DNA from: Halobacteriovorax sp.
GTDB lineage: Bacteria; Bdellovibrionota; Bacteriovoracia; Bacteriovoracales; Bacteriovoracaceae
Assembly: GCA_002720865.1 (NCBI GenBank)
Contig: PBIO01000027.1
Span: 1 to 64,000, forward strand
Direction: 5' to 3'
Length of the DNA: 64,000 nt
Part shown: positions 16,330 through 38,995 of the stretch, in pieces
How positions within the stretch are numbered: the stretch's first letter is position 1
How the letters are laid out: each line of letters begins with the position of its first letter
The notes under the pieces: generated by a model
Database searches by the model: none
What the model saw: the letters and a program-made list of their open reading frames with translations, nothing else
Told to the model about the DNA's origin: nothing
Made by a program: the position numbers and the translations under genes

Positions 16330-17736
16330 ATGGATAAAGAAGTTATCATCATTAGTGATCCAACATATGAATGGGCCAAATCCATGGGTCATTTTTTATG
16401 CTCAGTAGACTTTAAGCCTATAATTTTAGGTAGCGGAAAAGAAATCCAAAAAGAAATTTACGAAAATTCTGAAGTAACCACTCTTCTTTTAAATTTTGAA
16501 ACTGAAAATCATTCAGCTCTTGAAGTGCTTAGGTACATCAAGTCTATGAAGCCTAGTTTAAGAGTCTTTATGATCTTTGATAGTCAAAAAACTTTTGAAG
16601 AATCTGGTCTAGAGAAAAATGACCTCATTAAACTGGGAGTCACAAGCCATTTAATAAAACCTTTTAATAATCAAAAAGTCTCTAACCTCTTAAGTGGTGG
16701 TCAAAAGTTTGATACCTGGAAAGATACTACCAGATCATCAAGTGAGGAAGGGCCGCAAGAGATTGAAGCGGAAGATAAACAGTTCACAAGAATTAAACTA
16801 AAAGACTTTGCCGCTGGAGCAAGAACCGTATTTGACCACTATATTAAACTTGGAAATAAGAGGTATTTAAAAATCCTTCACCGTGGAGAAACTTTTAGTG
16901 TCAAAAGAATTACCGCTTATAGTGAAAAAGAAGTTGAGTATCTTTACTTTAAATCAAGTGAAAGAACAGAATACATAAATTATCTAAATAATTTAATTTC
17001 TAAAATTGCTCTAAAGCCAAATATTAAAACAAGTCAAAAACTTAATATGATGAAAATGGGAAGCGAACTTTTAGTTGAAGAGATTTATACAAAGGGTCTT
17101 TCCCCCTCTTTAATGAAAGAATCTAAATCCATCACCGAAGGGGTTCAAAAATGTTTAAAAGGGAACCCAGACCTTTTTAAGCTCTTAAGAAATCTTAACG
17201 AAGAAGATCCAAGCGCCTATTCTAAGGCCTACTTGACCTCTCTTTTTTCTGGAATGATCTGTATTCAAATTCCATGGGCCGGAAAACGAACTGCTGATAT
17301 TGTTGGCGAGGCTTCTTTCTTACTAGATCTTGGTATTCTAAAGATACCACCAGCAGAAAGAAATATTGACCCAAAATTAATGAAACCTGAAGAACTAAAA
17401 AGATATCACTCCCATCCGCTACTATCTGTTGAAATGCTTGAATCCTATAATTTTATTAGCGATAGCGTTAAGCAGGTTATCCTTGATCACCATGAGTATG
17501 TAAATGGTGAAGGATACCCCAAAGGCATTAGCGGTGTTCAGATTTTCCCACTTGCAAAGATTGTTTGTTTCGCCTCTGAATTTGCGGAATATATTTTACA
17601 TAAAAAGGTTTCCCCTGTTGATGGAATGAAGGAGCTCTTAGTTGCCAAGAAAAGCTTACATAAATATGACGCTGAAATTGTAAAATGTTTCGTGGCCTCT
17701 TTAATGCAAAAAGACTTTGCGAGCAAGGCAAGTTAA
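16330..17736 (+). CDS. Degenerate receiver + middle domain + HD-GYP-like protein
   Basis: Residues 1-120 fold like a response-regulator receiver, but the phospho-acceptor Asp is Asn (LLLNFETE, near residue 55) while the switch Lys remains (LIKPF). Residues about 168-216 (FDHYIKLGNKRYLKILHRG) match a domain shared with the proteins at 28516 and 29859. The C-terminus is HD-GYP-like: the HD motif is altered (LLDLGILKIP, His lost), but HHEYVNGEGYP is kept. HD-GYP proteins hydrolyse c-di-GMP; with the His missing, activity is doubtful and binding or scaffolding is possible. It heads the first signalling cluster. Confidence 0.82.
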   Translation: MDKEVIIISDPTYEWAKSMGHFLCSVDFKPIILGSGKEIQKEIYENSEVTTLLLNFETENHSALEVLRYIKSMKPSLRVFMIFDSQKTFEESGLEKNDLIKLGVTSHLIKPFNNQKVSNLLSGGQKFDTWKDTTRSSSEEGPQEIEAEDKQFTRIKLKDFAAGARTVFDHYIKLGNKRYLKILHRGETFSVKRITAYSEKEVEYLYFKSSERTEYINYLNNLISKIALKPNIKTSQKLNMMKMGSELLVEEIYTKGLSPSLMKESKSITEGVQKCLKGNPDLFKLLRNLNEEDPSAYSKAYLTSLFSGMICIQIPWAGKRTADIVGEASFLLDLGILKIPPAERNIDPKLMKPEELKRYHSHPLLSVEMLESYNFISDSVKQVILDHHEYVNGEGYPKGISGVQIFPLAKIVCFASEFAEYILHKKVSPVDGMKELLVAKKSLHKYDAEIVKCFVASLMQKDFASKAS

Positions 17737-17737
17737 A

Positions 17738-19354
17738 ATGATACTTTACTTTGGTGATGATCAAAACTTTGTTGACCGTATGAATTCTCACTATTCATCT
17801 AACTCTTCTTATGAAGAACTATTCGCCGAAAAAGAAATCTTTCGCGGTGAAAACATAATTTCTAAGATGATTTCAAAGAGACCAACTGCCATGATCTTTG
17901 ATTTTTCATATTCAAATGAAAAAAACCACGAAGTTTTCACTAAAATAAACTATTTAAAAAAGAATAAAGTTTTTAAAGGTGTTCCATTAATTGGAATTTT
18001 TAAGAACAAAGGAGAACTTAATAAGCTTTCTTACCTTTTTAATATTGGATTAAATTATCCCTTTATAAGAGGAACAGATGAAAGAATTCTCTTTGCAGAT
18101 ATTCACTATTTTTGTTTTGAACTTAATGCAGGTTTTTCTAAGTTTGCAAAGGCAAAGTTTAAAGGTCTTCCCTATCAAATAAAACACTTGGCGCATATAT
18201 ATGGGTTTACCAAGGAGACTATACTAATTGAATCAGATGTTTCTTTTAATACAGATGATTTAAAGAGTTTAGAGCTAAGACTAATGGAGGAAGATACTTC
18301 ATTAGATTTAAGGGCGGAAAAAACATTTGAAGTTGGTATTTCTAGTTCCTACTTAAATAGATCTGAATTTGAAATACCCTTTTTGGGTCCTTGGGATGAC
18401 CCAGGTTCTGACCTCATACATAAAGATAGTTTCGAAACCTGGATTGAAGAAAGTACTGAACATTTAAAACAAAAAAATGGAAGAATCCTTCTAATAACTG
18501 AAAGGCCTGAAGACTTTGTCCTAGCAGGGGAACTTGCTGTTCAATGCAATTTTGATATTTATGTATCTGACTCTTTCGAAGAGAGCAAAGAATATCTTTC
18601 TGCCTATAATTTTGATGTTATTTATTATAGACTTTCAAAAGAAGATGACCCCTTTCAAGGGGAAAACAATTTTGAAAATCTCTATAGACTGACCAACGCC
18701 ATAAAAAACAAATCCCGGGACCTAAAAACTGTTTTCGTCGCCTTTAACTCACCTTCAAAAAGTAATGCCTTAAAAAAGGCTATTGAGTATGATCATATTG
18801 TTGCTGTTGGTAATGAGTTAAGTTCTAATCAGCTAGGAAGTTTTACTAACCTCTTTCAGGAAAAAGGCTTAAAGCTTTCCTGTAAAACTGGCTGTTATTC
18901 ACTTAACAATAATGAATCCCGAGCAAAAATATTATTGGACGTAGAAATAACTTCCTTGACCGAGCATGAGATAACTTTTACCTCAAAAGAGAATCTTCCC
19001 ATGTACAGTATTGTTACAATTGATGTGCCAACAGAGCTTACCGTTATCATAGTCCCCCCTATCAATAATTTAGAGTCCAATCATCAATCCCATCATTATA
19101 TGGGTTTTTTGACAGGTGGAAGCGAACAAGACGCTGAGCTACTAAGAAGCTTTGTTAACAGAGCAATTATTAAAGGCCTTGAGGTTTTTAGTCTTGAGGG
19201 TATAGAAGAAGAGCTTTCAGAATTAGACCCTTCCGAAATAATCAACAACTCAGACACTACTGAGGCGATAGAAGAGCAAGTGCCCAAGGTTGTTAAAGAA
19301 GTTAAAAATAATATAAAAAGAAAAACTAATAATAATGGCAAATCTAAACTATAG
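17738..19354 (+). CDS. Two degenerate receiver-like domains plus PilZ-like C-terminus
   Basis: 538 residues from the ATG at 17738, one base after the preceding stop. The N-terminal receiver-like part keeps an Asp (MIFDFSYS) but lacks the usual Thr and Lys. A second receiver-like stretch (RILLITERPEDFVLAGELAV, from about residue 245) has Tyr where the Asp should be (FDVIYYRL). Residues about 385-495 form a beta-rich PilZ-like region with poor RxxxR motifs. A charged, Asn/Lys-rich tail follows. Likely a signal-output scaffold; domain calls are by pattern only. Confidence 0.65.
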   Translation: MILYFGDDQNFVDRMNSHYSSNSSYEELFAEKEIFRGENIISKMISKRPTAMIFDFSYSNEKNHEVFTKINYLKKNKVFKGVPLIGIFKNKGELNKLSYLFNIGLNYPFIRGTDERILFADIHYFCFELNAGFSKFAKAKFKGLPYQIKHLAHIYGFTKETILIESDVSFNTDDLKSLELRLMEEDTSLDLRAEKTFEVGISSSYLNRSEFEIPFLGPWDDPGSDLIHKDSFETWIEESTEHLKQKNGRILLITERPEDFVLAGELAVQCNFDIYVSDSFEESKEYLSAYNFDVIYYRLSKEDDPFQGENNFENLYRLTNAIKNKSRDLKTVFVAFNSPSKSNALKKAIEYDHIVAVGNELSSNQLGSFTNLFQEKGLKLSCKTGCYSLNNNESRAKILLDVEITSLTEHEITFTSKENLPMYSIVTIDVPTELTVIIVPPINNLESNHQSHHYMGFLTGGSEQDAELLRSFVNRAIIKGLEVFSLEGIEEELSELDPSEIINNSDTTEAIEEQVPKVVKEVKNNIKRKTNNNGKSKL

Positions 19355-19362
19355 GACTAGTT

Positions 19363-19785
19363 ATGAGCAAAGGTAATTTGTTAATCGTCGAAGATGAAAA
19401 GGCCTTAAGTGATCTTTTAGTTGATCTTCTCGGTCCACATGCTGAAAAAGTTTTCACCGCTTACAACGGTTTAGAGGCTTTGGATGAAGTGGCCAATAAT
19501 GAAGTTCATGGGATTGTTTGTGATATCAATATGCCAAAAATGAACGGGATTGAATTTATCGCAAAGATGAGGGAGCTTGGTAATAACCACCCAATTATTT
19601 TTTATACGGCCCATGGGAATGAAGCGCTAATGAGAGAGGCACTGTCTTATGGTGCCTTTGACTTTCTAGCTAAACCAAACTTTGACAATTTAGAAGGAAC
19701 TGTTCGTCAGGCCTTAGATGAAGGACTTAAAAGTGGAGGGTCCTCCTCATCTGAGGATGAATTAGCCGAGCTTATAAAAGGATAA
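19363..19785 (+). CDS. CheY-like response regulator
   Basis: Single receiver domain with all active residues: acidic pair in VEDEKA, phospho-acceptor Asp in CDINMPKMNG, Thr in YTAHGNE and Lys in LAKPNF. A Ser/Glu-rich tail of about 20 residues ends the 140-residue protein. It is the only intact receiver in this cluster and the plausible phospho-acceptor for the kinase at 20791. Same operon, 8 bases after the preceding gene. Confidence 0.92.
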   Translation: MSKGNLLIVEDEKALSDLLVDLLGPHAEKVFTAYNGLEALDEVANNEVHGIVCDINMPKMNGIEFIAKMRELGNNHPIIFYTAHGNEALMREALSYGAFDFLAKPNFDNLEGTVRQALDEGLKSGGSSSSEDELAELIKG

Positions 19786-19786
19786 A

Positions 19787-20179
19787 ATGAAAAAACTTTT
19801 ATTATTATTCATCTTTTTCTGTTCTTGTACTGATTCTAATTTGAATCATATAACTCCCCTCGGTGCCCATAGTCTAGTTTTTCACGATCAAGGTTTTATT
19901 ATTGATGTTAGAGCAGACTCAAAATATTTAGAGGTTCCTGATAAGGCTTACGTTATTTCAGAACGAGACATCGTAAATAATAATCCTCGTTGGATTAAAA
20001 TTTACTCTGAGAATAAAAACAAAAGGCTTATTTTATGCTGCGGAGAAAAGGAAGAATTTTCTACTTTATTGCCTTATATCAATAAAAATCAATTAAAAGT
20101 CTTTTACCTAACCGATTTAGAGGACTGGAAAGAAAAAGGTCTCCATGTTGATGCTCCAAGAAAACTGGCGGAGGAGTAG
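19787..20179 (+). CDS. Rhodanese-like lipoprotein
   Basis: 130 residues. Signal peptide with lipobox-like FFCSC, then a small rhodanese-like domain: HDQGFIIDVRADSKYL followed by RLILCCGEKEE, where a Cys occupies the active-site loop position. Predicted membrane-attached on the periplasmic side. Sulfur transfer or redox sensing are options. It directly precedes an SCO1-like gene, hinting at a shared redox/copper job (inference). Confidence 0.68.
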   Translation: MKKLLLLFIFFCSCTDSNLNHITPLGAHSLVFHDQGFIIDVRADSKYLEVPDKAYVISERDIVNNNPRWIKIYSENKNKRLILCCGEKEEFSTLLPYINKNQLKVFYLTDLEDWKEKGLHVDAPRKLAEE

Positions 20180-20180
20180 A

Positions 20181-20831
20181 ATGCTTAGAAATTATTTACC
20201 ATATTTTCTAATAGTTGCCACCACCTGTCTTATGTTAGGTCTCCCTAAATTATCAACAAAAATAAGCTCACCACAAGTTAATGGGAAAATGACCGATAAA
20301 GAAGCTCCTGAATTTTCTTTAAGAACAACTAAGAAAACGACTTTTAATAACTCTAATCTTAAAAACAAATGGACGCTTTTAACTTTTGGTTTTTCTAAAT
20401 GTAATGGAATATGTCCATTAAATCTTAGTAAACTTGGTGTCTTGATAGACTCTATTAAAGAAACTGATGCAAGCCGCTTGAAAGATCTGCAATTCGTTTT
20501 TATTTCTATTGATAAAGAAAGGGACAATCCTAAATCACTAGAGGATTTCACCTCTAATTTTTCAAAGTTGATAATCCCATTAAGTGACGGAGACGACACT
20601 GGACCGATTGTCTCTAAAAGATTTAATTCTTATATAAATAAGCAAAAAAACAAACAACCAGACTATCAAATATCCCATGCGGGTTTTATTTACCTTATTG
20701 ATCCAAATTCAAGAATAAAAATTATCTATACCAACGAAGAAGTAGCCTCAGAAGAGATTTTATCTGATTTAAAATTTCTAGGGAGACAGTATGGAACAGG
20801 CATTAGGAAAACTAGACTTAGCTCAATGTGA
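20181..20831 (+). CDS. SCO1/SenC-family thioredoxin-fold protein
   Basis: Membrane-anchored periplasmic thioredoxin-fold protein; family members deliver copper to cytochrome oxidase or act as thiol sensors. It shows an N-terminal membrane segment, GFSKCNGICPLN (CxxxC copper/redox site), and the conserved His in ISHAGFIYLID. Length 216 is normal. ATG 20181 has GGAGG; the frame is open further upstream but overlaps the previous gene. It overlaps the kinase start by about 40 bases. Confidence 0.88.
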   Translation: MLRNYLPYFLIVATTCLMLGLPKLSTKISSPQVNGKMTDKEAPEFSLRTTKKTTFNNSNLKNKWTLLTFGFSKCNGICPLNLSKLGVLIDSIKETDASRLKDLQFVFISIDKERDNPKSLEDFTSNFSKLIIPLSDGDDTGPIVSKRFNSYINKQKNKQPDYQISHAGFIYLIDPNSRIKIIYTNEEVASEEILSDLKFLGRQYGTGIRKTRLSSM

Positions 20832-22164
20832 AGACACAAAAATTAGAAATGAGGAGGAAATTCTACTTTCGAGTAGGCTTGAGTCTGATAAACTTATCCT
20901 AATTTTTTTGTGGCTGCACTTTCCACTGGCCGCTTTTATAATACCAAATGGCTATGGAACCCATATTGAAGGTGCAATTGCTTCTTTGGCTTTATGTACT
21001 ATTGGAACCCTAAGCTATCATATCTCTAGAGGAACTTTTGCTCACCGTCTATTAAACGGGCTCCTTCTCCTTGCTTTCTCAGCTCTTTTTATTACTTTAC
21101 AGTATGGAAGAATTGAAATGCACTTTCATGTTTTCGCCATTTTCCCTATACTTTTGATCTATAAAGACTGGAAAGTATACCCCCTCCCCGTTTTATTTAT
21201 TGCCGTACATCATGCGGCATTTAACTATTGCCAAATAAATGGAATAGATTTTTACGGATTACCATTGATTGTTTTCAACTATGGTAATGGTTGGGATATT
21301 GTTATTTTACATGCGGCCTTTGTAATTTTTGAGGCTGGTTTTTTAAGCTATTTTGCGAAAATTTTCAGAAGGCAACATATTTTCATTGAGAACGCTAATG
21401 ATATCCTTCAAAAGACTCTTGCTAAGAGAACAAAGGAGCTAAATGATCAGCACGCTCTTATGGTTAACTCAGCAAAGCTTTCTAGCCTCGGGGAAATGGC
21501 CGGAAGTATTGCCCACGAAATTAACAACCCTCTTGCCATCATCAGAGCGTCTAGTTTGCTAGTAGACCGGGCCGTTCCAAAAGATATTCAAGATAGAGCA
21601 AAGTTTGATAAGCATATCAATCAAATTAATAATACAGTTGACCGAATTACAAAAATTGTTTCAGGTCTAAGAAATCTATCTCGTTCCGAGAAAATTGATG
21701 AAGTAGAGAACCATACTCTTAAAGAGTGCTTAGAAGATGTCGTTTTGTTAACAGAATCAAAACGTCGTAACAGAGATATAAGGTTAAAATTTGATTTAGA
21801 AGATGAGGTTTTTCAAACTTTAGTAAACGTACAACTTGTCCAAATCAACCAGGTTTTTATGAATCTCTTCAATAACTCTATTGATGCCCTTACCGAAACA
21901 GAAGGCGACGCCTGGATATCAATAGATTATGTAAAAACTGAATCTAAGCACAAAATATTCTTCAGAGATTCTGGAATAGGGATTAAAGCCGATATTGTCG
22001 AAAAAATATTTGTTCCCTATTTTACTTCTAAAGATTTTGGAAAGGGCACTGGATTGGGCCTATCCCTAAGTAAATCGATTTTGAAGAAACATGGGGGAGA
22101 TTTATATTATAAAGGCGACGAGGGATCAACATGCTTTGTGATTGAACTTCCAATTACAAAATAA
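20791..22164 (+). CDS. Membrane sensor histidine kinase
   Basis: An N-terminal polytopic sensor of five or six helices (residues about 30-195) contains EMHFHVFAIFPILLIYKDWK, a pattern seen in membrane sensors of some kinases and chemoreceptors. A coiled linker leads to the H-box SLGEMAGSIAHEINNP (His near residue 242) and an ATPase domain with NLFNNSIDAL, FRDSGIGI and GKGTGLGLSLSKSI. The overlap with the SCO1-like gene suggests the sensed signal may relate to copper, oxygen or thiol state (inference). Confidence 0.9.
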   Translation: MEQALGKLDLAQCEDTKIRNEEEILLSSRLESDKLILIFLWLHFPLAAFIIPNGYGTHIEGAIASLALCTIGTLSYHISRGTFAHRLLNGLLLLAFSALFITLQYGRIEMHFHVFAIFPILLIYKDWKVYPLPVLFIAVHHAAFNYCQINGIDFYGLPLIVFNYGNGWDIVILHAAFVIFEAGFLSYFAKIFRRQHIFIENANDILQKTLAKRTKELNDQHALMVNSAKLSSLGEMAGSIAHEINNPLAIIRASSLLVDRAVPKDIQDRAKFDKHINQINNTVDRITKIVSGLRNLSRSEKIDEVENHTLKECLEDVVLLTESKRRNRDIRLKFDLEDEVFQTLVNVQLVQINQVFMNLFNNSIDALTETEGDAWISIDYVKTESKHKIFFRDSGIGIKADIVEKIFVPYFTSKDFGKGTGLGLSLSKSILKKHGGDLYYKGDEGSTCFVIELPITK

Positions 22165-23005
22165 GGTCTATAAAATTTGCTTCGCCCCAATCCTTTGCGG
22201 GATCTCCCTTTCCCCAACGATTGCATTTATCGTTAGGGTCTTTTTTATAATTAAAACCCGTTCCTCTCACATGGATCCCAACAATTTCGTGGGATTCAGC
22301 GCTGAAGACGGCTGAACCAGAGTTTACGGAGTAAGTATCTAGCTGATGTCTAAAGGAGTTTTTATTTAAGTCAGAAGAAATAATAGTGCCACTTGGCTGA
22401 TATTTCATAGGAAGCCCTAAGGGAAAACCAAGAATAAAAAGCTCTGTACCAACAGGAGCGCGTCTCCCAATAGAAATTTTAAGAGGTGCTCTACCCTCTA
22501 CTTCTTTTGTTAACTCTACTACCGCATAGTCTTTATAAGTAACCCACTCAAATTCTTGTTTAACAATTTTTTTAATTATATAAACATTTTCTTTTTTTAT
22601 CGTTTTAGGGCCCGCTCCATTCGCCTCTGCTTTATAATCAAAAACCACGGCATAATCATCGATTCCCATATTCATAGAATCGTCGAAACAGTGGGCGGCC
22701 GTGCCTACTAAATTTGTTCCAATAAGAAAGGCGCTACAATTGGCAAGCGGGCTTTGTTTTTTCACAAATTTTTCATCTTCACAAAAGCCAAAATCTTCAA
22801 TATAGGAACTCGTATCGAGAGTATATTCATCCTCATTTTTAGATTTTAAAAACTTCTTTAAAACGAGCGCAGGAATAGATTTTGATAACTCTACAATCTC
22901 TTTGTTTTTTACATCCACAAGATCAGTACGATTATCTTCACCGAAAATAGTAGCGTTTGAATTAACTGAAAGAAAAATGGCAAGTATGATTAATGCTTTC
23001 ATCAA
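22154..23005 (-). CDS. Exported trypsin-like serine protease
   Basis: Signal peptide (residues 1-18), then an S1-type fold with a complete triad: TAAHC (His near 105), DYAVVEL (Asp near 159) and VNSGSAVF (Ser near 225). LFILGFPLGLPMKYQPSG is typical of secreted bacterial glutamyl-endopeptidase-like enzymes. Several Cys may form disulfides. It is last of a three-gene exported-protein operon, its start overlapping the preceding stop by four bases. Confidence 0.88.
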   Translation of the reverse strand: MMKALIILAIFLSVNSNATIFGEDNRTDLVDVKNKEIVELSKSIPALVLKKFLKSKNEDEYTLDTSSYIEDFGFCEDEKFVKKQSPLANCSAFLIGTNLVGTAAHCFDDSMNMGIDDYAVVFDYKAEANGAGPKTIKKENVYIIKKIVKQEFEWVTYKDYAVVELTKEVEGRAPLKISIGRRAPVGTELFILGFPLGLPMKYQPSGTIISSDLNKNSFRHQLDTYSVNSGSAVFSAESHEIVGIHVRGTGFNYKKDPNDKCNRWGKGDPAKDWGEANFIDLIL

Positions 23006-23769
23006 TTTCCATCAGGGTAAACATGTGTATCAGTTTCATCACCATGAATCTCTAACTCAATGGCGACCCTTATTGTTCCAGCATCATTTTTTGTGTAAGC
23101 ATTAAAAGGATCATCTTTTAAGTCATTCTCTCCCATTCTTTTTAACCAAATAATATAATGTTCATCTAGCTTAAAACTAACAAAGTCACCTTTAGAATGG
23201 ATCGGATCGCCTTTTATCTTAAATTCACTCTTTATCGCCTCTGTCGCTCTTTGAAAAGCTTGTGGCCCAGGCCGATATTCAAAACTTAAGTGTTGAAGTG
23301 TTTCATTTCCATTCTCATCGGCCATATACTGGGCATGAACATATCTAGTCCCTGGCAGAGTATCTTTAGTTCTCACAATATTCATAGAGCCGGTGTAGGG
23401 ATTAGAATTGATATTTACCGTAGGTCTCAAGTTTAAATTTCTAAGTGATTCTCTTAAGCTTTTCGAGTCTTTTTTTTCTTCAAAAACCTCTGCAAAGGTT
23501 GTGCTCAATTTTGCTAGAGACTCTTCATTTTCATCTTTGGGTTTAAAAGGTGGGACTATCGCTTTTTCTTGGTTAGGCTTTTTTACTATTGGACTCTTTA
23601 CCTTTAACTTAGCTTTGCCATGGTCGTGAGAATGATCATGTTTCTCAATCGTCTTAGTCTCTACTTCTTTTTCAATCTCGGTAAACTCTACTTCTTCTTT
23701 CTTGTCATCACCAAGAAAAAAGAAGCCTGCTATAACAAGTAGAGCGATAAGCCCTAATACTTTTTTCAT
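23002..23769 (-). CDS. Membrane-anchored His-rich protein, unknown function
   Basis: One N-terminal hydrophobic segment (residues 3-19, uncleaved anchor or signal), then a Glu/Lys stretch and HDHSHDHGKAK, a likely metal-binding His cluster. The C-terminal domain (residues about 115-255) contains ESLRNLNLRPTVN and repeats no motif I know. Predicted periplasmic, between LytM-like and trypsin-like genes, so it could be an inhibitor, chaperone or substrate of either (inference). Confidence 0.62.
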   Translation of the reverse strand: MKKVLGLIALLVIAGFFFLGDDKKEEVEFTEIEKEVETKTIEKHDHSHDHGKAKLKVKSPIVKKPNQEKAIVPPFKPKDENEESLAKLSTTFAEVFEEKKDSKSLRESLRNLNLRPTVNINSNPYTGSMNIVRTKDTLPGTRYVHAQYMADENGNETLQHLSFEYRPGPQAFQRATEAIKSEFKIKGDPIHSKGDFVSFKLDEHYIIWLKRMGENDLKDDPFNAYTKNDAGTIRVAIELEIHGDETDTHVYPDGN

Positions 23770-25440: not shown

Positions 25441-25569
25441 AGTCTGATTTAAGCATATTATTGAAATAAATTGGTTTTGAGTGTAAAGATTACACACTGT
25501 GTCATCCTAAAAAGAACCTTAAAATCAGCTACTTATGACCTATGTAGCACTCAAAAGGGCGAAGAAAGT

Positions 25570-25598
25570 TTGCCACCCCAAGTGGCCCTCTATATAAT
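25570..25598 (+). promoter_or_regulatory. Strong promoter producing a leaderless tldD mRNA
   Basis: TTGCCA (25570-25575), a 17-base spacer and a perfect TATAAT (25593-25598). Only seven bases, CCGCCCC, separate the -10 box from the tldD ATG at 25606, which places the expected transcription start on the A of the start codon. No Shine-Dalgarno sequence is possible. The GC-rich discriminator resembles promoters under stringent control (family knowledge). Confidence 0.75.
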
Positions 25599-25605
25599 CC
25601 GCCCC

Positions 25606-27078
25606 ATGATAGATAACGAGATAAGAAACTTATTAGACGATTTAAAGGCGAAAGGCGCTGAATACGCCGATGTCAGATACCATACTCTAGATCTTCATGA
25701 GCAGATCCACCTTCAGGATGGATTAATGAAGAACTATAATTTTCAAGATAAAAAAGGATATGGCGTACGAGTTCTCTATAAAGGTGCCTGGGGTTTTTTT
25801 AGTAATGAAGACCCTAAGCTTTTAAAGGAGACTGCGGCCATCGCCATGAAGAAGGCTCAAAGTGCCGCTTTATTTATGCAAGACTCTGTAAAGCTTGCTC
25901 CAAAAGAAGTTTACAAAGAAAATTTTCGATCGAATATCGGAGAAGATCCCTTTGAAGTAAATCTTAAGGATAAGATAGAACTTTTATCTAATATAAATAA
26001 AAGATTAAAACATGAGCGCTTCACCTTTAGAGGAGCTAGTGCAAGTTTTAATAAAAGAACTATTTTATTCTTTGATACAGATGGATCTGAAATTGAGAAA
26101 CATACTTTAGAGGTAGACCCTTATATGTATGCCTATGCTAAAGATAGAGATGGTCTTACCCAAAGCCGATCCTATCTTATGTATCAAAATGCTACCCCTG
26201 ACTCCACAGTAGGTTTAGAAAATATTAGAAATGAGGAACAATTCTCTTCTCACCCGGAGCGAATAAAGGAAGAGCTACTGCAGGTTCTAGATGCTCCTAT
26301 TCAAGAGGAAGAGGTTTGCTCGTTAATTCCCGGTCATGAAATGATGGCCTTGCAAACTCACGAGACTATAGGCCATGCCCTAGAGCTAGATCGTATTTTA
26401 GGATATGAATTAAGCTACGCTGGTGGCTCTCATGTTGATCTTGAAGACTTTAATTCTCTAAAATTTGGTAGCGAAAAATTAAATGCCCACGCTTCTGGTA
26501 CGACTTTAAACTCTCCAGGAAGTGTTGGCTTTGACGACGACGGTGTAAAAGGGGTCGACGTATTAATGATTGAAAAAGGAAAATTGAAGAACTGTATCAC
26601 CTCTAGGCAGATGATAATGGAGGCGAACCAAAAAGCAGGAAAAGAAATCTTTAAAGAAAGCGGAGGTGCCTGCCGTGCCCAAAGCTACAATAATCTTCCC
26701 ATTGAAAGAATGAATAATATTAATATCGATTCTGGTAATGACGGAACTCTTGAGGATATTATTTCTAAAACTGAAAATGGACTAATGCTTGAAACTCCTA
26801 AGTCTTGGTCCATTGGCTCAAATAGAGAAAATTTTCATTTTGCCTGTGAAATTGGCTGGAAAATTCGAGATGGAAAGATCTCTCACGTTGTTCGAAATCC
26901 AACTTACAAAGGTGACTCGTTAAAATTTTGGCATTCTCTTGACCTTGTCGGAGATAGTTCCACTTGGCAGCTTCAACAAGTTTTTAATTGCGGAAAAGGC
27001 CAACCAAATCAAATCATGCACCTGGCCCATGGCGTTCCTATCTGCAGGTTTAATTCTATAGAGGTGGGGAATAAGTAA
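25606..27078 (+). CDS. tldD: TldD metalloprotease subunit
   Basis: With TldE forms a zinc protease that trims unfolded or modified peptides in the cytosol. 490 residues from MIDNEIRNLL; the frame is open upstream but the family N-terminus starts here. The zinc motif HETIGH (HExxxH) is present in QTHETIGHALELDR, and GSVGFDDDGVKG is typical. The start has no ribosome site and sits at the predicted transcript 5' end. It overlaps the tldE start by one base. Confidence 0.95.
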   Translation: MIDNEIRNLLDDLKAKGAEYADVRYHTLDLHEQIHLQDGLMKNYNFQDKKGYGVRVLYKGAWGFFSNEDPKLLKETAAIAMKKAQSAALFMQDSVKLAPKEVYKENFRSNIGEDPFEVNLKDKIELLSNINKRLKHERFTFRGASASFNKRTILFFDTDGSEIEKHTLEVDPYMYAYAKDRDGLTQSRSYLMYQNATPDSTVGLENIRNEEQFSSHPERIKEELLQVLDAPIQEEEVCSLIPGHEMMALQTHETIGHALELDRILGYELSYAGGSHVDLEDFNSLKFGSEKLNAHASGTTLNSPGSVGFDDDGVKGVDVLMIEKGKLKNCITSRQMIMEANQKAGKEIFKESGGACRAQSYNNLPIERMNNINIDSGNDGTLEDIISKTENGLMLETPKSWSIGSNRENFHFACEIGWKIRDGKISHVVRNPTYKGDSLKFWHSLDLVGDSSTWQLQQVFNCGKGQPNQIMHLAHGVPICRFNSIEVGNK

Positions 27079-28472
27079 TGAATAAAGAATCGGTAATTGA
27101 TTGCTTAAAAAATATTGTAAGTGGCCTTAAAAGTGAGAATTTTCATACTGAAGTTATTTATCGGGGCGAAAAGTCGCATTTAATTCGCGCCGGAAGAAAT
27201 CAGATATCACTTAATGTTGGTGAAGAAGGCTCAAAGTTTTTCTTGAATCTTCAAAAGGGAAAACGTTTTATCTCAGGGTCCTTAACCGCTAAGGATAACG
27301 ATCATGAAAAAGTCATCTCCTACGCTAAAGACTTAGCAACTAAAATAGACTTAATGCCAGAAGTACCCCATTTAAAAGAGCCGAAGCCTTTGGCTCAGGG
27401 TTTGATAGTAGAAGAAGCTGACGAAAATTTAAAAAATTTTGATACAGAAGTAGCCGTAAAATTTTATGAAGATGCATTTAAAAGATTTGAGAAAGACTCA
27501 ATTGAGTTATCTGGCGCTTTTAGTGCAGGTTTTTATAATATCGCGATGGCCTCAACAAACTCTCCATCCCCCTCATATTATGAAGGGACAGACTTTAACA
27601 CAGAGCTTGTTTTGCAACTTCTTAAAGATGACAAAAAAGAACTTCGTGTTTCACAAGTTGGAGCACATATCACAGATTATCGTCCGTCAAAAATGTTGGA
27701 TCATCTCCAAAAGACGATGGATATAAAGAAGCAAACACCGAGAAAAGATCTTCCTCCTGGCGAGTACGATGTGATTTTTCACGCCGATGCTTTTTCAGAT
27801 ATGATTTCCTATATGACTTGGGTCGCTCTTAGGGGGGACTCATGGCTTTATCAAACCGGCATGCTTCAAAAAGGAGAACATGATCCAGGAAGTCAGGTCT
27901 TTGGAGAAAATTTTCACCTTACTGATAATCATGAAGACGAGGACGTTTTATTTCATAGACCGTTTGGATTAAATGGTGCGCTTAAACCTAATTTTACTGC
28001 ATTTGATAAAGGCGTACTAAAAGGCTTTTATCACACCAATAAAGATACTTGTGACAAATTTGATATTGAGATTAATAACTGTAGTCAAATTTCAAGCTAT
28101 AAGCTTCATCCTGGAAATGGACCTGCCAGCTTTGAAGAAATGATAAAGTCTACGACCAAACCTACGCTTTATATTCCCTATATCCATTATATGAACTTTA
28201 CTAACCCTGCTAAAGGGGAGTTCACAGGAACAAGCCGTTTTGGAACTTTTTTGATTGAAAATGGAAAAGTCAGTCACCATATATATAACTTAAGAATAAA
28301 TGACTCTTTTCATTCTATTTTCAATAATATCGATTGGCTTAGCTCAAAGCTTGAACAGGTCAATTTCTCAAATACCTACGGATTAAGGCTGGCCGGCTCA
28401 GTCGCCTGCCCTCGATATGCCAGAGTAAACGGAGTAAAAATAAGCGGTTCTAGCGGAACATCTAAGTCCTAG
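27078..28472 (+). CDS. tldE: TldE/PmbA protease partner
   Basis: 464-residue partner of TldD. Members lack the zinc motif and shape the proteolytic chamber. Recognisable by DLPPGEYDVIFHADAFSDM, YHTNKDTCDKF and a C-terminal TNPAKGEFTGTSRFGTFLIENG block. No HExxxH is seen, as expected. Start directly abuts tldD. Confidence 0.92.
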   Translation: MNKESVIDCLKNIVSGLKSENFHTEVIYRGEKSHLIRAGRNQISLNVGEEGSKFFLNLQKGKRFISGSLTAKDNDHEKVISYAKDLATKIDLMPEVPHLKEPKPLAQGLIVEEADENLKNFDTEVAVKFYEDAFKRFEKDSIELSGAFSAGFYNIAMASTNSPSPSYYEGTDFNTELVLQLLKDDKKELRVSQVGAHITDYRPSKMLDHLQKTMDIKKQTPRKDLPPGEYDVIFHADAFSDMISYMTWVALRGDSWLYQTGMLQKGEHDPGSQVFGENFHLTDNHEDEDVLFHRPFGLNGALKPNFTAFDKGVLKGFYHTNKDTCDKFDIEINNCSQISSYKLHPGNGPASFEEMIKSTTKPTLYIPYIHYMNFTNPAKGEFTGTSRFGTFLIENGKVSHHIYNLRINDSFHSIFNNIDWLSSKLEQVNFSNTYGLRLAGSVACPRYARVNGVKISGSSGTSKS

Positions 28473-28515
28473 GAATATTTTAGGTAAATATCTAAAATTA
28501 GGTTAAAATAGAATT

Positions 28516-29862
28516 GTGAAAGCTCTTTTTATATGTTCTGAAAGGACAAACTGGAATAACTTCATTGGCTTCTTTAGAGATCATCTAAGTGAAGTCGAGT
28601 TGTTTTGTGCAAGAAATGGAAGTGATTCCATGGACATAATTATCCACGAATCCCCTATCTCAGTAATAATCATTGATAATCAATTGCAAGATGAAGAACA
28701 AATCTCAATTGCAGAAGATATTTTCGAGGCCGCAGGCCAAAAGCCTATTATCTTTCTTGGTGATGAAAGCTCGACAACAGAACTTATTACTTCAGAATTT
28801 TTTAGTAATTATAAAACTAATGAGATAATTGAAAAACCTTATCCAGAAGAAAAACTCAAATCCTCAATCGAAAAAGCACTAGAATGGAGCAAGACCAATA
28901 CTGGGGGTAGTGCTCATAAAACCGTTGAAGAAGAAGAGTACCTTCCCGTAAAACTAAAAAGCTTTTACCTCTATGACAAGGTCGCCTACGATGTTTATTA
29001 CATGGTTTATACTGACAATTATATGAAGGTGCTTACAAAGAATAAAAGATATACGGAATCAACAATTCAAAACCTGGCCAAGAAAAATATAAAAGATTTA
29101 TATCTAATAAAATCAGAAAAAATAAAGTTCCTCGATGAATCGATGCAAAGAGCAATTGAAATTTTGACATCAAAGAACTCTGATCAAGATAAAAAAATAT
29201 CAACTCAAATTTGTGGTGTTCTTTTAATTCATGAAATGGTTAACGAGGTTGGTGTAAGTGACTCAGTTTTAAGTTTAGCCGATTTAATTGTTAATGCCGC
29301 CCAAGAAGTGGTTAAGGACATAAAAGACTTTGGTACTTTATTTGCTCAGATGCCACTTACTTATGGTGACTTAGGAGAGCAGGCTATTTTCATGTTATAC
29401 CTCTGTCATTATATGAATGCAGAGCTTGAATGGGAGTCAGATATGACTTTTAGAAAGCTTGGGTTAGCCTGTATACTTCATGACTGTAAACTAAAATACG
29501 ACGATCTAAGTTTAATTAGAAATATTGAAGACGAGCAATTAAAAGAATATAACCTCCATAGTCTAAATATTTATAAAGAACATATGCTTCAGGCTTCTCA
29601 GGTCTCAACTGAATTCAATAACTTTCCGGATTGTAGCTTTATAATAAGGGAGCATCATACTTTACCAGAAAAAAAGTATACGAATAATATGAACTCAATT
29701 AGCTGCCTTTTCACACTAGTAAGAAGACTGACTACAGAGTTAGCGAATTTTGGTTTTACAAAGATGGGAATTAAGCAGGCCTTACCAGAGATTCAAGTTT
29801 ACGAGTTTGGGAACTTTAAGAAGCCGTACGATGCGATTTTGAAAATATTCTCAATCAACTAA
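28516..29862 (+). CDS. Receiver + shared middle domain + degenerate HD protein
   Basis: 448 residues. The receiver-like N-terminus keeps a potential phospho-Asp (VIIIDNQLQDE) and Lys (IIEKPYP). Residues about 155-205 (YDVYYMVYTDNYMKVL) match the middle domain of the 16330 and 29859 proteins. The C-terminal HD region keeps HD (ILHDCKL, near 321) and HH (REHHTLP, near 380) but has no GYP. It starts GTG with no clear ribosome site; TAAAAT lies 6 bases upstream, so it may also be leaderless. c-di-GMP hydrolysis is uncertain. Confidence 0.78.
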   Translation: MKALFICSERTNWNNFIGFFRDHLSEVELFCARNGSDSMDIIIHESPISVIIIDNQLQDEEQISIAEDIFEAAGQKPIIFLGDESSTTELITSEFFSNYKTNEIIEKPYPEEKLKSSIEKALEWSKTNTGGSAHKTVEEEEYLPVKLKSFYLYDKVAYDVYYMVYTDNYMKVLTKNKRYTESTIQNLAKKNIKDLYLIKSEKIKFLDESMQRAIEILTSKNSDQDKKISTQICGVLLIHEMVNEVGVSDSVLSLADLIVNAAQEVVKDIKDFGTLFAQMPLTYGDLGEQAIFMLYLCHYMNAELEWESDMTFRKLGLACILHDCKLKYDDLSLIRNIEDEQLKEYNLHSLNIYKEHMLQASQVSTEFNNFPDCSFIIREHHTLPEKKYTNNMNSISCLFTLVRRLTTELANFGFTKMGIKQALPEIQVYEFGNFKKPYDAILKIFSIN

Positions 29863-31202
29863 ATTCTAATTTTTTCTAATGTCCCAATAATTTTATGATA
29901 ACTTTTGTTTGTATAGCGATCCTGAAGCTCTTCTAAGATCGTTCCTATGACTGGCTCCTCTCCATCATCCTTGGCTTTTAAGAACTCATCAACAAACGCT
30001 TCACCAATCAAGATGATTTTTGCCAGGGGAGAAACATCATCACCTGGATCCATGGCAAAGCCTACTCCATTTGTAGCACCATGATGCTGGGTAGTGATTG
30101 TATCAGCTCCCATAGGTGCTTTAGGTAATCTCTTAAGCGCATTACCAGCTTCTTTTGCATGATTTATGATAACGTCTTTTTCTTCATCAGAGAGCTCAGG
30201 AGAGAAAATTAAATCTTCTTCATATTTAATATCTTGGTGGTCATTATAGATTGGCACTAAAAACATATCATGAAAAAATAGTACGTAACTGACTTTTTCT
30301 ACATGCTCTTTACTGCCCCAAGGAATTTTATCAAGGATATATTGGCAGACAAAGGTTGTTAACACTGAGTGCATATAAATAAATCTCGATTTATTACTAA
30401 GCATCGATTTTAAGAGATCACCCAAGCTAGGCTCTGAGTTGATTACATCATTAATTGCATCTACGCATTGCCCTGAGATTTCGAGCACCTCTTCCGCTAC
30501 TTCTTCGTTTGAAAAGAGGTTCTGAGCCACAAGCTCAAAGCCTGATTCAACGGCCTCAAGCTTCTCATCTTGATTTAAGCTCTTATCCGAAAGCTTAGTT
30601 GATATATTACTTGTTACTTTATTTGTAATTTCTAATCTTTTTGAAGCAGGTATATATAAATTTAATATTTCAAGGTTTTTAAATTTTTCAAACTTTTGAT
30701 CTATGGCCTGTCCTTCTGACCATACTTTAGTAAATATTTCTTCTTTTCCTGGTTTACTGACTTTATAAAAAACATCGCAAGGTGCATTTGTCATCCCAAG
30801 AAGGACCTTTAAGCCCATGGGAAAGTATTCACCTACTGCTTTTTCGGCCATTTCTTCAGCTGTAATTCCTAGAACTCTAGCAATACTTCTTAAGAAAAAC
30901 TGAATATTTAAGTTTCCAGGAACAGTGATAACTTCTGGAGTATTACTGACTTCAGATTTTTCTCCAACAATGACTACTGGTAGATCATTTTTTTGAGCAG
31001 CAGAGGCCATCTCTTTACCAACATCATTTTCATCAATAAGCGAAAGTGAGATTAGAATATCGTAGTTACCTGAAGAGGCCTTTGACATGGCATTTTCAAG
31101 GGAAGAGTCGACTTCGAGATCAATATCCAAATAACTAGATAAATTTATGGTGTAGATATCATTTAAAAATTCATTATCTGATAGAAAGAGTGCTCTTGGC
31201 AT
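29859..31202 (-). CDS. Degenerate receiver + shared middle domain + HD-GYP-like protein
   Basis: 447 residues. The receiver-like N-terminus has lost the acceptor Asp (NYDILISLSLID). The middle domain starts near residue 142 (CDVFYKVSKPGKEEIF). The HD region has FFHDMFLVP (near 311), an NHAKEAGNAL His, TQHHGATNGVGF in place of HHE-DG-GYP, and a late Asp (GEAFVDEF). The metal ligands look more complete here than in the two paralogues, so phosphodiesterase activity is possible. Encoded convergently with 28516 (4-base overlap). Confidence 0.8.
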   Translation of the reverse strand: MPRALFLSDNEFLNDIYTINLSSYLDIDLEVDSSLENAMSKASSGNYDILISLSLIDENDVGKEMASAAQKNDLPVVIVGEKSEVSNTPEVITVPGNLNIQFFLRSIARVLGITAEEMAEKAVGEYFPMGLKVLLGMTNAPCDVFYKVSKPGKEEIFTKVWSEGQAIDQKFEKFKNLEILNLYIPASKRLEITNKVTSNISTKLSDKSLNQDEKLEAVESGFELVAQNLFSNEEVAEEVLEISGQCVDAINDVINSEPSLGDLLKSMLSNKSRFIYMHSVLTTFVCQYILDKIPWGSKEHVEKVSYVLFFHDMFLVPIYNDHQDIKYEEDLIFSPELSDEEKDVIINHAKEAGNALKRLPKAPMGADTITTQHHGATNGVGFAMDPGDDVSPLAKIILIGEAFVDEFLKAKDDGEEPVIGTILEELQDRYTNKSYHKIIGTLEKIRI

Positions 31203-31205
31203 AAA

Positions 31206-31895
31206 CTAATCTCTTTCTTTTATAAAACGATAGCCTTTTCCATGTGCCGACTTAATCGTGTACTGGCTTTGGCCTATTTTTTTTCTAATCTTAGAAATAT
31301 GTTGGTCCACAGTTCTATCTACGACATAGTTGTTCTTACCCCAAATTTCAGTAAGAATAACTTCTCTGGACATGACTGTTCCTTCCTGCTTCGCCATTAA
31401 ATATAAAATTTTAAACTCAATAGGCGTTAAATCTACTGCATTGGCCACACCACTTAACTCAAGGGACAAGGCCTGTGTTGATAAGTCAAAGCGAAGATCA
31501 CCCTTGACCATGATATTTGCTTCACCTGCGTGACTGGTTCTAAGTCTGGCCTGAATCCTAGCCTTTAACTCTAAGGGCTCGAAAGGTTTAGTAACATAAT
31601 CATCAGCACCTGACTCAAAAGCCGTTAATTTATTTTCTAGTTCTTTTTGAGAAGTAAGCATAACGATTGGCAAATCTGGTCTTTTTAAATCTTGCTTAAT
31701 ATAATGACAAAATTCGGTCCCCCTTCCGTCGGGAAGCATTTCATCTAGAATAATAAAATCATATTCTTCTTTATTGAATTCCTCTCTGGCCTTTGAAATA
31801 TTCGAGGCCCAAGTCAGACTATAGTCAGAGGATAGTGCTGCATTCACTAAGTTAAAAATATCTTGATCATCATCTACTACTAGTATTTTTTTCAT
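31206..31895 (-). CDS. OmpR/PhoB-family response regulator
   Basis: DNA-binding regulator. Receiver with VVDDDQD, acceptor Asp in IILDEMLPDG, Thr in MLTSQKE and Lys in VTKPFEP, followed by a winged helix (LTPIEFKILYLMAKQEG; YVVDRTVDQHISKIRKKIG; KSAHGKGYRF). Length 229 is standard. It ends 3 bases before the HD protein gene, so the two are co-transcribed. No adjacent cognate kinase; the Hpt protein at 32014 or the kinase at 20791 are candidates. Confidence 0.95.
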   Translation of the reverse strand: MKKILVVDDDQDIFNLVNAALSSDYSLTWASNISKAREEFNKEEYDFIILDEMLPDGRGTEFCHYIKQDLKRPDLPIVMLTSQKELENKLTAFESGADDYVTKPFEPLELKARIQARLRTSHAGEANIMVKGDLRFDLSTQALSLELSGVANAVDLTPIEFKILYLMAKQEGTVMSREVILTEIWGKNNYVVDRTVDQHISKIRKKIGQSQYTIKSAHGKGYRFIKERD

Positions 31896-32013
31896 TACCC
31901 GAGCTTTCCGGTTTGTCTCTTATGTTTATATAGTTAAATTTTAAGGTCATTTCCAAAAGTTTCCTACAATAAAATTCAAATGATTGATAAAATTAAAGAG
32001 AGGAGCTGAATTT

Positions 32014-32316
32014 ATGAGCGACAAGATTATTGTAAAAATTGATAGTGACTTAGAAGAAATTATTCCTATGTTTATTGACAATAGGCACAAAGACTTAAAA
32101 GAACTCGATGAACACTTAGTTTCAAACGATATACAGTCAATCGAAGTCATTGCTCATAAGCTAGCAGGTAATGCTGGCTCTTACGGATTTATGGACTTAA
32201 GTAAAGTTGGTGCAAGTCTTGAAGAGGCTTGTAAGGAAAAAAACCAAGAAGATATAAAGAAGTATATCTTGGAGTATAAAGATTTCATGAAAAATCTAGA
32301 GGTTGTTTTCGAGTGA
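32014..32316 (+). CDS. Hpt phosphotransfer protein
   Basis: 100-residue helical-bundle protein with the Hpt signature IEVIAHKLAGNAGSYGF, whose His is the phospho-carrier. The ATG at 32014 has a GAGGAG site. It would relay phosphate between a hybrid kinase and receivers. It is followed by two receiver proteins in the same operon, whose first GTG overlaps its stop. No hybrid kinase is in the window. Confidence 0.88.
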   Translation: MSDKIIVKIDSDLEEIIPMFIDNRHKDLKELDEHLVSNDIQSIEVIAHKLAGNAGSYGFMDLSKVGASLEEACKEKNQEDIKKYILEYKDFMKNLEVVFE

Positions 32317-33041
32317 GTTTAAAAGGAAAAGAGATTCTCGTCATCGACGACGATTCTCAATATCAATTTTTTATAAACAATATCTTGTCCAACCTGGGAA
32401 TCACTATTACTCAGGCAAAAAATTATGATGAAGCAATAAATTGCCTTAAAGAATCTATCCCCCATTTAATTATCACAGATATTAAGTTAAATGATGGTAA
32501 AGATGGACTTGAGATTCAAAAGTATTTAAAAGAAAATAAAAGTTATAAAGCTATACCAGTATTTGTTATTACGGCCGATGCAACCAGAAGCACAATCTTT
32601 CAATCCCTCGCTCTCGGGGCCAATGAATATATGATTAAACCCGTCATTGCAAAAAATCTTATTCAAAAGATAAGGCGACTCTTTATGGACTATGCTGCGC
32701 CTGAAATTAGGTTGCTTGACGATAGTACTGGTAAATTTAAACCAGAATTTGAAATGGCCTTTGAAAACAATTTTGATATTGAAATTGAAACTGACTTTAA
32801 TCTTAGGGCCATTAATGAGCTCTCCTGTATTTTACAAGGGCCAGTTAAATTCCCTAAAGAAACTGTATTAGAATTAAATTCCGATTTATTAAACTCAATT
32901 GGTGGTGATGGGCTAGGTTTTAGGTCTATTGAAAATAGTCGTACAATAGAAGCTGGTACCTTTAGCACTCGATTTAGCCTAATAGGAATAGATGAAAAAA
33001 CTGCTCAAAAAATAAGAGCATTAAGGGTAACAAAATCGTAA
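32313..33041 (+). CDS. Response regulator with C-terminal PilZ-like region
   Basis: 242 residues. Receiver with VIDDDSQ, acceptor Asp in IITDIKLNDGKDG, Thr in VITADAT and Lys in MIKPVIA. Residues about 140-240 are beta-rich, PilZ-like, and lack a clear RxxxR/DxSxxG, so c-di-GMP binding cannot be claimed. The GTG overlaps the Hpt stop, giving translational coupling and suggesting it receives phosphate from that Hpt. Confidence 0.8.
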   Translation: MSLKGKEILVIDDDSQYQFFINNILSNLGITITQAKNYDEAINCLKESIPHLIITDIKLNDGKDGLEIQKYLKENKSYKAIPVFVITADATRSTIFQSLALGANEYMIKPVIAKNLIQKIRRLFMDYAAPEIRLLDDSTGKFKPEFEMAFENNFDIEIETDFNLRAINELSCILQGPVKFPKETVLELNSDLLNSIGGDGLGFRSIENSRTIEAGTFSTRFSLIGIDEKTAQKIRALRVTKS

Positions 33042-33745
33042 TGGCAAAAGATCTAATTCTTACTATTGACGATGATAAAGACTTTAATAGGTTATTGGAA
33101 CTTAAATTAAAAAAGCATGGCTTTGAGGTCATAACGACAACAGACGCTTCAGATTTTCTTAGAAAACTTCACCACCGAAACCCTTCACTATGCATAATTG
33201 ATTTAAATTTGGCAGAGGCTTTTGGTGCTGGTTTTCAAATAATACAGGCCATAAGAAATTCAAACCAAAAACATATTCCCCTATTTGTTTTAAGTTATAG
33301 ATCAGATAAAAAAGACATTGCCAGAGCCATTCAACTTGGGGCCAATGACTATCTTCATAAACCTCTCGATGAGCTCGTCTTGCTCGATAAGATTAATCAA
33401 TATCTCAACGTAAACGAGCCTTATACACCACTACCTTTTTTTGAAATCACGCAGGCAAAAAGGCAATCAAAAGTTAAGTTTAAGCATAAAGTCATCGCGA
33501 TTAGCGAATTTGGGATAACTATAGAAGGTCCTTGTTTGATAGCAAGGGGAACCCTCTTAACCATTAAATCAAAGGTTCTTTCTAATATTTTGAAAAGTCC
33601 TGAACAAGTTTTGAAATTATCAGTTTCAGATACATGGATGGAGTCCGAGCGTAATCTTTATAGGGCCTTTCTTGAATTTAACCCTGATAACCATGCTTTG
33701 CTTTCAGCAGTGAGAACCTGGCTTTTGGCCAACGCCACTACTTAA
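33041..33745 (+). CDS. Response regulator with C-terminal PilZ-like region
   Basis: 234 residues, same layout as the preceding protein. Receiver: TIDDDKDF, acceptor Asp in CIIDLNLAEAFG, Ser in VLSYRSDK and Lys in LHKPLDE. C-terminal beta-rich region from about residue 135 (RQSKVKFKHKVIAISEFGIT). It starts on the preceding stop (1-base overlap). Output is not predicted to be DNA binding; protein or second-messenger binding is likelier. Confidence 0.8.
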   Translation: MAKDLILTIDDDKDFNRLLELKLKKHGFEVITTTDASDFLRKLHHRNPSLCIIDLNLAEAFGAGFQIIQAIRNSNQKHIPLFVLSYRSDKKDIARAIQLGANDYLHKPLDELVLLDKINQYLNVNEPYTPLPFFEITQAKRQSKVKFKHKVIAISEFGITIEGPCLIARGTLLTIKSKVLSNILKSPEQVLKLSVSDTWMESERNLYRAFLEFNPDNHALLSAVRTWLLANATT

Positions 33746-37868: not shown

Positions 37869-38995
37869 GAAGCCTTTTTCATAAGTTCTTTCACCCAATC
37901 CGGAGAGATAAAGTTGCTCTTCGGAAATGGAAGCTTATTAACCACAATATCATTAAAGAAACTTGGTACATAATTACAGGGAACCATCTCGCCAGTATAC
38001 TTACCCGTTTCAGGATCTTTACCGGTTTGAACCCACTTAAAAATATCACGAACAATATAATTACCTTTATCATCAAGTCCTAAAATTTCGCTAATATGTG
38101 AAGTTCTTCTTCCTCCATCATGATAACGATTACACTGAACAACTAGCTGCATGGCCGAACCAATCATTTTTCTGATGGCATCTGGAGGGATTTGCGTATC
38201 ACCCATTAGACAAAGAGTTTCTAAACGAGTGCAAGCGTCAAGTGGATTATTCGCGTGAACTGTTCCCATTGAACCATCATGACCTGTGTTCATAACCTGA
38301 ATAAGATCTAGGGCCTCATCTCCTCTAACTTCACCTACAATCATTCGATCAGGTCTAAGTCTCATGGAAGATTGAACGAGGTCTCTAATATCGACTTCTG
38401 TAATTCCCCGAGTAGGGTCTGCTTTTCTCGTGACAAAGTTAACTACATGTTCTGCCTTAACTTGCAGTTCAGCTGAATCTTCAATAATGATTAGTCTCTG
38501 AGTTTTAGGGATTCTTCCCCCTAAAACATTTAGCATCGTGGTTTTACCTGAACCGGTACCACCAGAGACGATTATATTTTTAGAAAGATAAATACATATA
38601 TCTAAAAACCTTGCTCCCATAGCTGAAAGCGAACCAAACTCAATTAAATCTTTTATTCCAAGTTTTTCTTTAGAAAACTTTCTAATTGCTACTGTTGTTC
38701 CATTTTGTGCCATAGGAGGAATCACAACGGCCACCCTTGACCCGTCTGGTAGAGTTGCATCAAGCCTCGGATTATCCGCATCGATTACTCTTCCAACGGA
38801 CTGAGCAATAGCACGCATGGCCGAAACCAGTGCATCTTCATTAGGAAATTGATTGGGAGTCTTGTAGACAAGACCTTTTTGTTCCACAAATACTTCGTGA
38901 GGACCATTAATCATGATCTCTGTGACAGATTCATCTTTTAACAGGTCGCCGATCGGTGCCAACAACCCTTCAATAGCATCATCAAATACACTCAC
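37865..38995 (-). CDS. CpaF/TadA-family secretion ATPase
   Basis: Hexameric ATPase of the type II/IV pilus superfamily. Walker A is SGGTGSGKTT; the Asp box is IIIEDSAEL; VGEVRGDEALDLIQVMNTGHDGS and GTVHANNPLDA complete the core. 376 residues, with the usual N-terminal domain (VTEIMINGPHEVFVE). GTG start, four bases after the cupredoxin-like gene. No TadB/TadC, pilin or secretin gene is adjacent, so its machine must be encoded elsewhere. Confidence 0.9.
   Translation of the reverse strand: MSVFDDAIEGLLAPIGDLLKDESVTEIMINGPHEVFVEQKGLVYKTPNQFPNEDALVSAMRAIAQSVGRVIDADNPRLDATLPDGSRVAVVIPPMAQNGTTVAIRKFSKEKLGIKDLIEFGSLSAMGARFLDICIYLSKNIIVSGGTGSGKTTMLNVLGGRIPKTQRLIIIEDSAELQVKAEHVVNFVTRKADPTRGITEVDIRDLVQSSMRLRPDRMIVGEVRGDEALDLIQVMNTGHDGSMGTVHANNPLDACTRLETLCLMGDTQIPPDAIRKMIGSAMQLVVQCNRYHDGGRRTSHISEILGLDDKGNYIVRDIFKWVQTGKDPETGKYTGEMVPCNYVPSFFNDIVVNKLPFPKSNFISPDWVKELMKKAS

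Follow-up and report, generated by a model that had tools for sequence, protein, structure and literature searches.

A conserved tail-to-tail pair of degenerate receiver/HD-GYP-like proteins, probably non-catalytic toward c-di-GMP, in the Bacteriovorax/Halobacteriovorax group

The window analyzed here, a 64,000-nucleotide stretch of Halobacteriovorax sp. DNA (contig PBIO01000027.1), encodes three receiver/HD proteins with altered key residues. An initial annotation took these and the surrounding signaling genes for two linked clusters forming one relay with non-catalytic outputs, which raises the question of whether the genes belong together and whether the HD proteins still act as enzymes. 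The genes concerned are as follows.

16330 to 17736, plus strand: HD16330 (subfamily A2), 468 aa; receiver with Asn at the acceptor position, Bd1817-type N-terminal domain (NTD), HD domain
17738 to 19354, plus strand: double-receiver protein of unit 1, receiver-beta-receiver-beta
19363 to 19785, plus strand: CheY-like single receiver of unit 1 (Pfam), acceptor Asp present
20791 to 22164, plus strand: sensor histidine kinase, HisKA and HATPase_c (Pfam)
28516 to 29862, plus strand: HD28516 (subfamily B), 448 aa; receiver with Asp, Bd1817-type NTD, HD domain
29859 to 31202, minus strand: HD29859 (subfamily C), 447 aa; receiver without the acceptor Asp, Bd1817-type NTD, HD domain
31206 to 31895, minus strand: OmpR/PhoB-type response regulator adjoining HD29859 (Pfam)
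31984 to 32316, plus strand: Hpt phosphotransfer protein (Pfam)
32313 to 33041, plus strand: single-receiver protein 32313, its C-terminal domain akin to the tail of 33041
33041 to 33745, plus strand: single-receiver protein 33041, its C-terminal domain akin to the tail of 32313

Pfam recovered the CheY, Hpt, kinase and two single-receiver proteins named in the initial annotation; Hpt, CheY, the kinase and the OmpR-type regulator are ordinary members of their families. The HD28516 and HD29859 genes lie tail-to-tail and overlap by 4 bp. Directly upstream of HD28516, two successive plus-strand genes (25471 to 28472), the first encoding a TldD-like metalloprotease (NCBIfam, below cut-off), hold the same position in G002 and at locus L138. 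Elsewhere, the window encodes a 1,605-aa protein with a met-zincin (DUF4953) stretch (49417 to 54234, plus strand) and a T2SSE-type ATPase (37865 to 38995, minus strand) that is 79 to 98% identical in relatives. The ATPase best matches TadA/VirB11-like proteins, but below curated cut-offs; it adjoins the pair in only some members of the family, and we claim no link to type IV pili or predation.

The three HD proteins are mutually homologous, with 21 to 23% identity and E values of 1e-9 to 1e-12 (blastp). HD_5 scored 61 bits in HD16330 and was sub-threshold or absent in HD28516 and HD29859, and receivers were sub-threshold or absent in all three, with weak matches for HD16330 and HD28516 (Pfam). 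Profile-profile comparison with hhalign recovered the receiver fold of HD29859 at 96%, and its AF2 model (pLDDT 84.6) matched DivK-type receivers and, as the best Foldseek match, Bd1817 of Bdellovibrio bacteriovorus (TM 0.6 on target). The middle domains carry the cores FDHY, YDVY and CDVF, and HMMER aligned residues 152 to 442 of HD16330, covering the middle and HD domains, to the Bd1817 structure 3TM8 (E 1.4e-12). Judged by this alignment, the middle domain is the NTD of Bd1817. The Bd1817-type layout of NTD, linker and HD domain was thus found by HMMER in HD16330, by Foldseek in HD29859 and by homology in HD28516. Homology, hhalign, Foldseek and Pfam HD_5 agree on three paralogues with receiver-like, middle and HD domains, as originally described.

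The same NTD-linker-HD layout and a degenerate GYP motif characterize Bd1817 (PDB 3TM8/3TMB/3TMC/3TMD), an "unconventional" HD-GYP protein that is reported to be inactive on c-di-GMP (PMC4159591, PMC8177086). Unlike the window's proteins, Bd1817 has no receiver. In our alignment it retains an HHE-like Glu and Asp308, with Asp305 replaced by Asn and His277 by Glu, whereas subfamily C has Glu305 and HHG and has lost Asp308. RpfG and TM0186 share the receiver-plus-HD layout, and proteins of the RpfG/TM0186/PmGH type carry the motif H..HD..H..HH..D.

We then compared the window's proteins with this motif, using PmGH residue numbering after PMC4159591. That each had lost different key residues was correct, but several of the original calls proved incomplete in the alignment. 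HD16330 does lack the acceptor Asp (replaced by Asn) and the HD His (Leu), but His189 (Lys) and Asp305 (Ser) are gone too; its HD domain is without His189, His221 and Asp305, and HHE and GYP are kept. HD28516, annotated as lacking GYP, lacks it, but also has Gln for His189, HHT for HHE and Arg for Asp305; its receiver Asp is present. HD29859 was thought to lack the acceptor Asp only. It has Leu within S-L-S in the acceptor column, with no acidic residue at that place, but it also carries HHG, GFA for GYP and Glu305, with six His/Asp ligands retained. None of the three has the full H..HD..H..HH..D ligand set: HD16330 and HD28516 miss at least two, and HD29859 has six plus Glu for the last Asp. 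Nor does any combine a complete HHE...GYP with the ligands, HD29859 having HHG...GFA, HD28516 HHT without GYP, and HD16330 the motif without the ligands.

A tree and alignments resolved four subfamilies: A1, A2 (HD16330), B (HD28516) and C (HD29859). Residues were counted in one MAFFT alignment, consistent with a smaller one, that included 45 C and 36 B sequences. In C, His189, His221, Asp222, His250, His276 and His277 are each present in 45/45, as are HHG and Phe for the Tyr of GYP (giving GF[A/T/V]), and Glu305 occurs in 44/45. The receiver acceptor Asp occurs in 0/45 C sequences. Asp183 is Asp in only 12/45, Lys225 is Leu in 44/45, and Asp308 is lost. Subfamily B has likewise lost Lys225 and Asp308 (36/36), and the Arg314/Lys317 substrate loop is missing in nearly all B and C members. 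Both thereby differ from the RpfG/TM0186/PmGH type, C additionally in HHG and GF[A/T/V] and B in lacking His189 (Gln in 27/36) and Asp305 (never Asp). B keeps His221 in 15 sequences and HHE and GFP in 33/36, the three exceptions being the window's genus; its receiver acceptor is Asp in 9/36 and Glu in 17/36. All 21 A1 sequences have intact HHE and G[F/Y]P along with six His/Asp ligands, position 305 is Asp in 17 and Asn in 4, and the receiver acceptor is Asn or Ser. A2 is mostly intact outside the window's genus, with the acceptor Asp in 6/10; in three congeners of that genus His189, His221 and Asp305 are gone and the acceptor is Asn.

What these patterns mean for activity can be gauged from PmGH, in which Ala at the His/Asp222 ligands, Asp183, Lys225 or Asp308 essentially abolished activity, Ala at Glu185 or Asp305 reduced it, and GYP mutants remained active (PMC4159591). 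A missing GYP by itself is therefore not diagnostic. That C has lost Lys225 and Asp308 argues more strongly against ordinary hydrolysis of c-di-GMP, without proving its absence, and by their residues the HD proteins are probably non-catalytic toward c-di-GMP. Since C is altered in conserved, subfamily-specific ways, it has not undergone recent decay. As read from the alignment, the changes in B and C are old and subfamily specific, the one recent change in B being that its HHE/GYP loop was lost.

To place the pair in its lineage, we surveyed 129 genomes of the family for B and C, with ortholog score cut-offs chosen by eye from score lists. In raw genome counts uncorrected for phylogeny, 53 of the 129 genomes hold both genes, and these are tail-to-tail adjacent in 48 of the 53, their match ends −2 to 40 bp apart. 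Of the remainder, G013 has B and C 2.5 kb apart, G001 has them on two contigs with both matches cut at contig ends, and both genes are kept apart on different contigs in G020 and G083 and 28 kb from each other on one contig in G084. Seven genomes have one gene only, two of these near contig ends; G055, G081 and G126 carry one without the other. Around the pair, nearly all other gene order differs between the window and G004, G011 and G015. An OmpR regulator, Hpt and receiver proteins lie beside it in part of the family (L131 to L141), and sfsA, citrate synthase and others elsewhere. Named records with the HD29859 gene come from Halobacteriovorax, Bacteriovorax, Bacteriovoracaceae and a few MAGs labeled only Oligoflexia or Bdellovibrionales.

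At the core of unit 2, the tail-to-tail pair 28516/29859 is conserved and has been retained across much of the Bacteriovorax/Halobacteriovorax group. Both this core and the conserved, subfamily-specific degeneracy of unit 2 escaped the first reading of the locus. B and C are 87 to 88% identical in protein sequence to those of G001 while silent sites are saturated, and hence both are under purifying selection; in most pairs compared, this saturation leaves no usable dN/dS. That two altered paralogues stand side by side in about 50 genomes suggests that they work jointly as regulators rather than as ordinary enzymes. In one genome (G010:C1:42432-43796, locus L048), an in-frame TAG divides the B gene into parts of 267 and 151 aa, whereas the adjoining C gene is intact.

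From the observed homology, residue patterns, adjacency and co-occurrence we infer a B-C partnership. We give about an even chance to the reading that B and C have been maintained as a pair of pseudoenzymes, possibly heteromeric, and serve as receptor or scaffold, with unit 1 an independent trio. The two would function jointly, possibly within one heteromer. In this view C would be a pseudoenzyme with an occupied di-metal site, not switchable by phosphorylation, that binds rather than hydrolyzes a nucleotide or other ligand; B would be its partner, its phosphorylatable Asp still there in part of the group. The signal would run from the pair to the adjoining Hpt, receiver and OmpR proteins where these are present. 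A precedent is WhiI with BldM, in which a receiver fold without a phosphorylatable Asp takes part in a heterodimeric coincidence detector (PMC12632262), although the outputs there are DNA-binding and those of the window's proteins are HD domains. Against the pseudoenzyme-pair reading, C keeps six of seven dimetal ligands and a Glu at the seventh, so some hydrolysis may be possible. The window's B lacks the HHE/GYP loop, so the task of B may differ between genera. We think it unlikely, as a bolder variant, that B and C form an obligate hetero-oligomer with a divided HD-GYP site, in which C would supply the metal centre and B the HHE/GFP loop (outside the window's genus), sensing or processing a nucleotide messenger without phosphorylation of C, in Bacteriovorax-type predators only.

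The strongest rival reading is that C is an active phosphohydrolase whose substrate has changed, to 3',3'-cGAMP or a linear dinucleotide for instance, with B as its regulatory partner. It ranks so because Bd2325 is reported as a cGAMP-specific phosphodiesterase (PMC9140294, PMC10482364). By those descriptions, Bd2325 shares the NTD, helical linker and HD-GYP domain seen here and is set apart by being catalytic and by an N-terminal extension in place of the receiver. The invariant His/Asp ligands and near-invariant Glu305 of C look maintained for chemistry, and PmGH tolerates GYP mutations. However, Lys225 and Asp308 are gone in essentially all C members and Asp183 is retained in few, each a position at which Ala abolishes PmGH activity, and the HHE Glu is Gly throughout. 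We regard a substrate-shifted C as somewhat improbable.

We assign little probability to the view that all three HD proteins arose by duplication of functional phosphodiesterases, are now decaying and serve no specific role. Such decay would fit HD16330, whose ligands and acceptor Asp are gone only in the window's genus and which is less conserved (70% identity to G001) than its paralogue A1 (91%), and HD28516, whose HHE/GYP loop was lost only there. It is at odds with frames intact in three congeners, proteins that stay 62 to 88% identical while silent sites are saturated, the family-wide invariance of C at key positions and the adjacency of the pair. For C, random decay is rejected by the invariant patterns and purifying selection. 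An explanation in which the proteins do not touch, and shared antisense or transcription-termination control of overlapping genes holds them tail-to-tail, draws on the closeness of the gene ends, yet both genes are kept where they lie apart (G020, G083 and G084), and we consider it a poor candidate.

The supposed two linked clusters are two separate units: in the congener G002 the pair occupies C5:64.6-67.3 kb, and the HD16330 gene is found about 300 kb away, at C5:363.7 kb. Genes flanking the window's stretch 16330 to 22164 otherwise match there, but the stretch itself is missing between them. HD16330, double-receiver and CheY genes occur together in G001, G002, G010, G018 and G022; in G023 a contig end follows the first two of these genes. 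Among the genomes looked at, histidine kinase 20791 joins the trio only in G001 and G022. Unit 1 (16330 to 19785) is therefore an independent HD/double-receiver/CheY trio conserved across genera. By its residues, HD16330 appears to have become a pseudoenzyme within the window's genus, where alone the ligands and acceptor Asp are lost. G004, G011 and G015 have a third HD gene some 10 kb from the pair; the tree rejected its orthology with HD16330 and identified it as A1. In the window's genome (G000), A1 (C32:59530) has six ligands, Asn305, HHE and GFP. A conserved convergent gene for a 340-aa DUF4340 protein lies beside A1 (L042:14794-17278, L117:3447-5919), a second tail-to-tail arrangement in the receiver-NTD-HD family.

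The receivers of the 17738 protein were recovered by hhalign at 80% and 55%, confirming the annotated two-receiver protein; a low-confidence AF2 model (pLDDT 58.5) likewise gave receiver-beta-receiver-beta, with beta-rich segments. The PilZ-like regions proposed for the two receiver proteins did not hold up: for the tails of 32313, 33041 and 17738, hhalign gave <1% against the genome's own eight PilZ domains and stayed <2% overall, and PilZ was found neither by Pfam nor among the listed Foldseek hits of the 17738 model. A PilZ identity of these tails is thus not supported by profile-profile comparison. A phosphorelay into all three HD proteins is likewise not supported, given the missing acceptor Asp of C and the Asn of HD16330 in the window's genus. 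Of the proposed relay feeding non-catalytic outputs, the degenerate and probably non-catalytic HD proteins survive, but not the single relay, the PilZ outputs or the common phosphorelay. That both clusters form one phosphorelay feeding PilZ and HD outputs is very improbable, even though kinase, Hpt, CheY and receivers all lie within 17 kb, given the distance between the units in G002, the different paralogue near the pair in other genomes, the absent acceptors and the unsupported PilZ domains.

The window's genome (4.9 Mb, 33 contigs) encodes at least 12 receiver-NTD-HD paralogues, none of which combines all seven canonical ligands with HHE and GYP; complete HD-GYP motifs occur in HD proteins without a receiver (L001 to L004). 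One C-like member (L119:3699-5906, G000:C17) has 735 aa, with sequence beyond the usual 450 aa and the motif THDHHHE / GGFC. With 2 GGDEF, 0 EAL, 8 PilZ and 14 HD_5 matches, the genome has a strong imbalance of few c-di-GMP synthases against many HD-GYP-like proteins. This count and the residue patterns support the view that receiver/HD proteins with degenerate sites have multiplied specifically in this lineage.

With about 50 pairs of natural orthologues, B/C offers a clean, testable case of probable pseudoenzyme specialization. It also places in an evolutionary setting the solved protein Bd1817, for which the regulatory role was reported as unknown. Judging from this one genome, Bacteriovorax-type predators carry out cyclic-dinucleotide signaling with few synthases, no EAL proteins and many HD-GYP-like proteins with conserved catalytic replacements.
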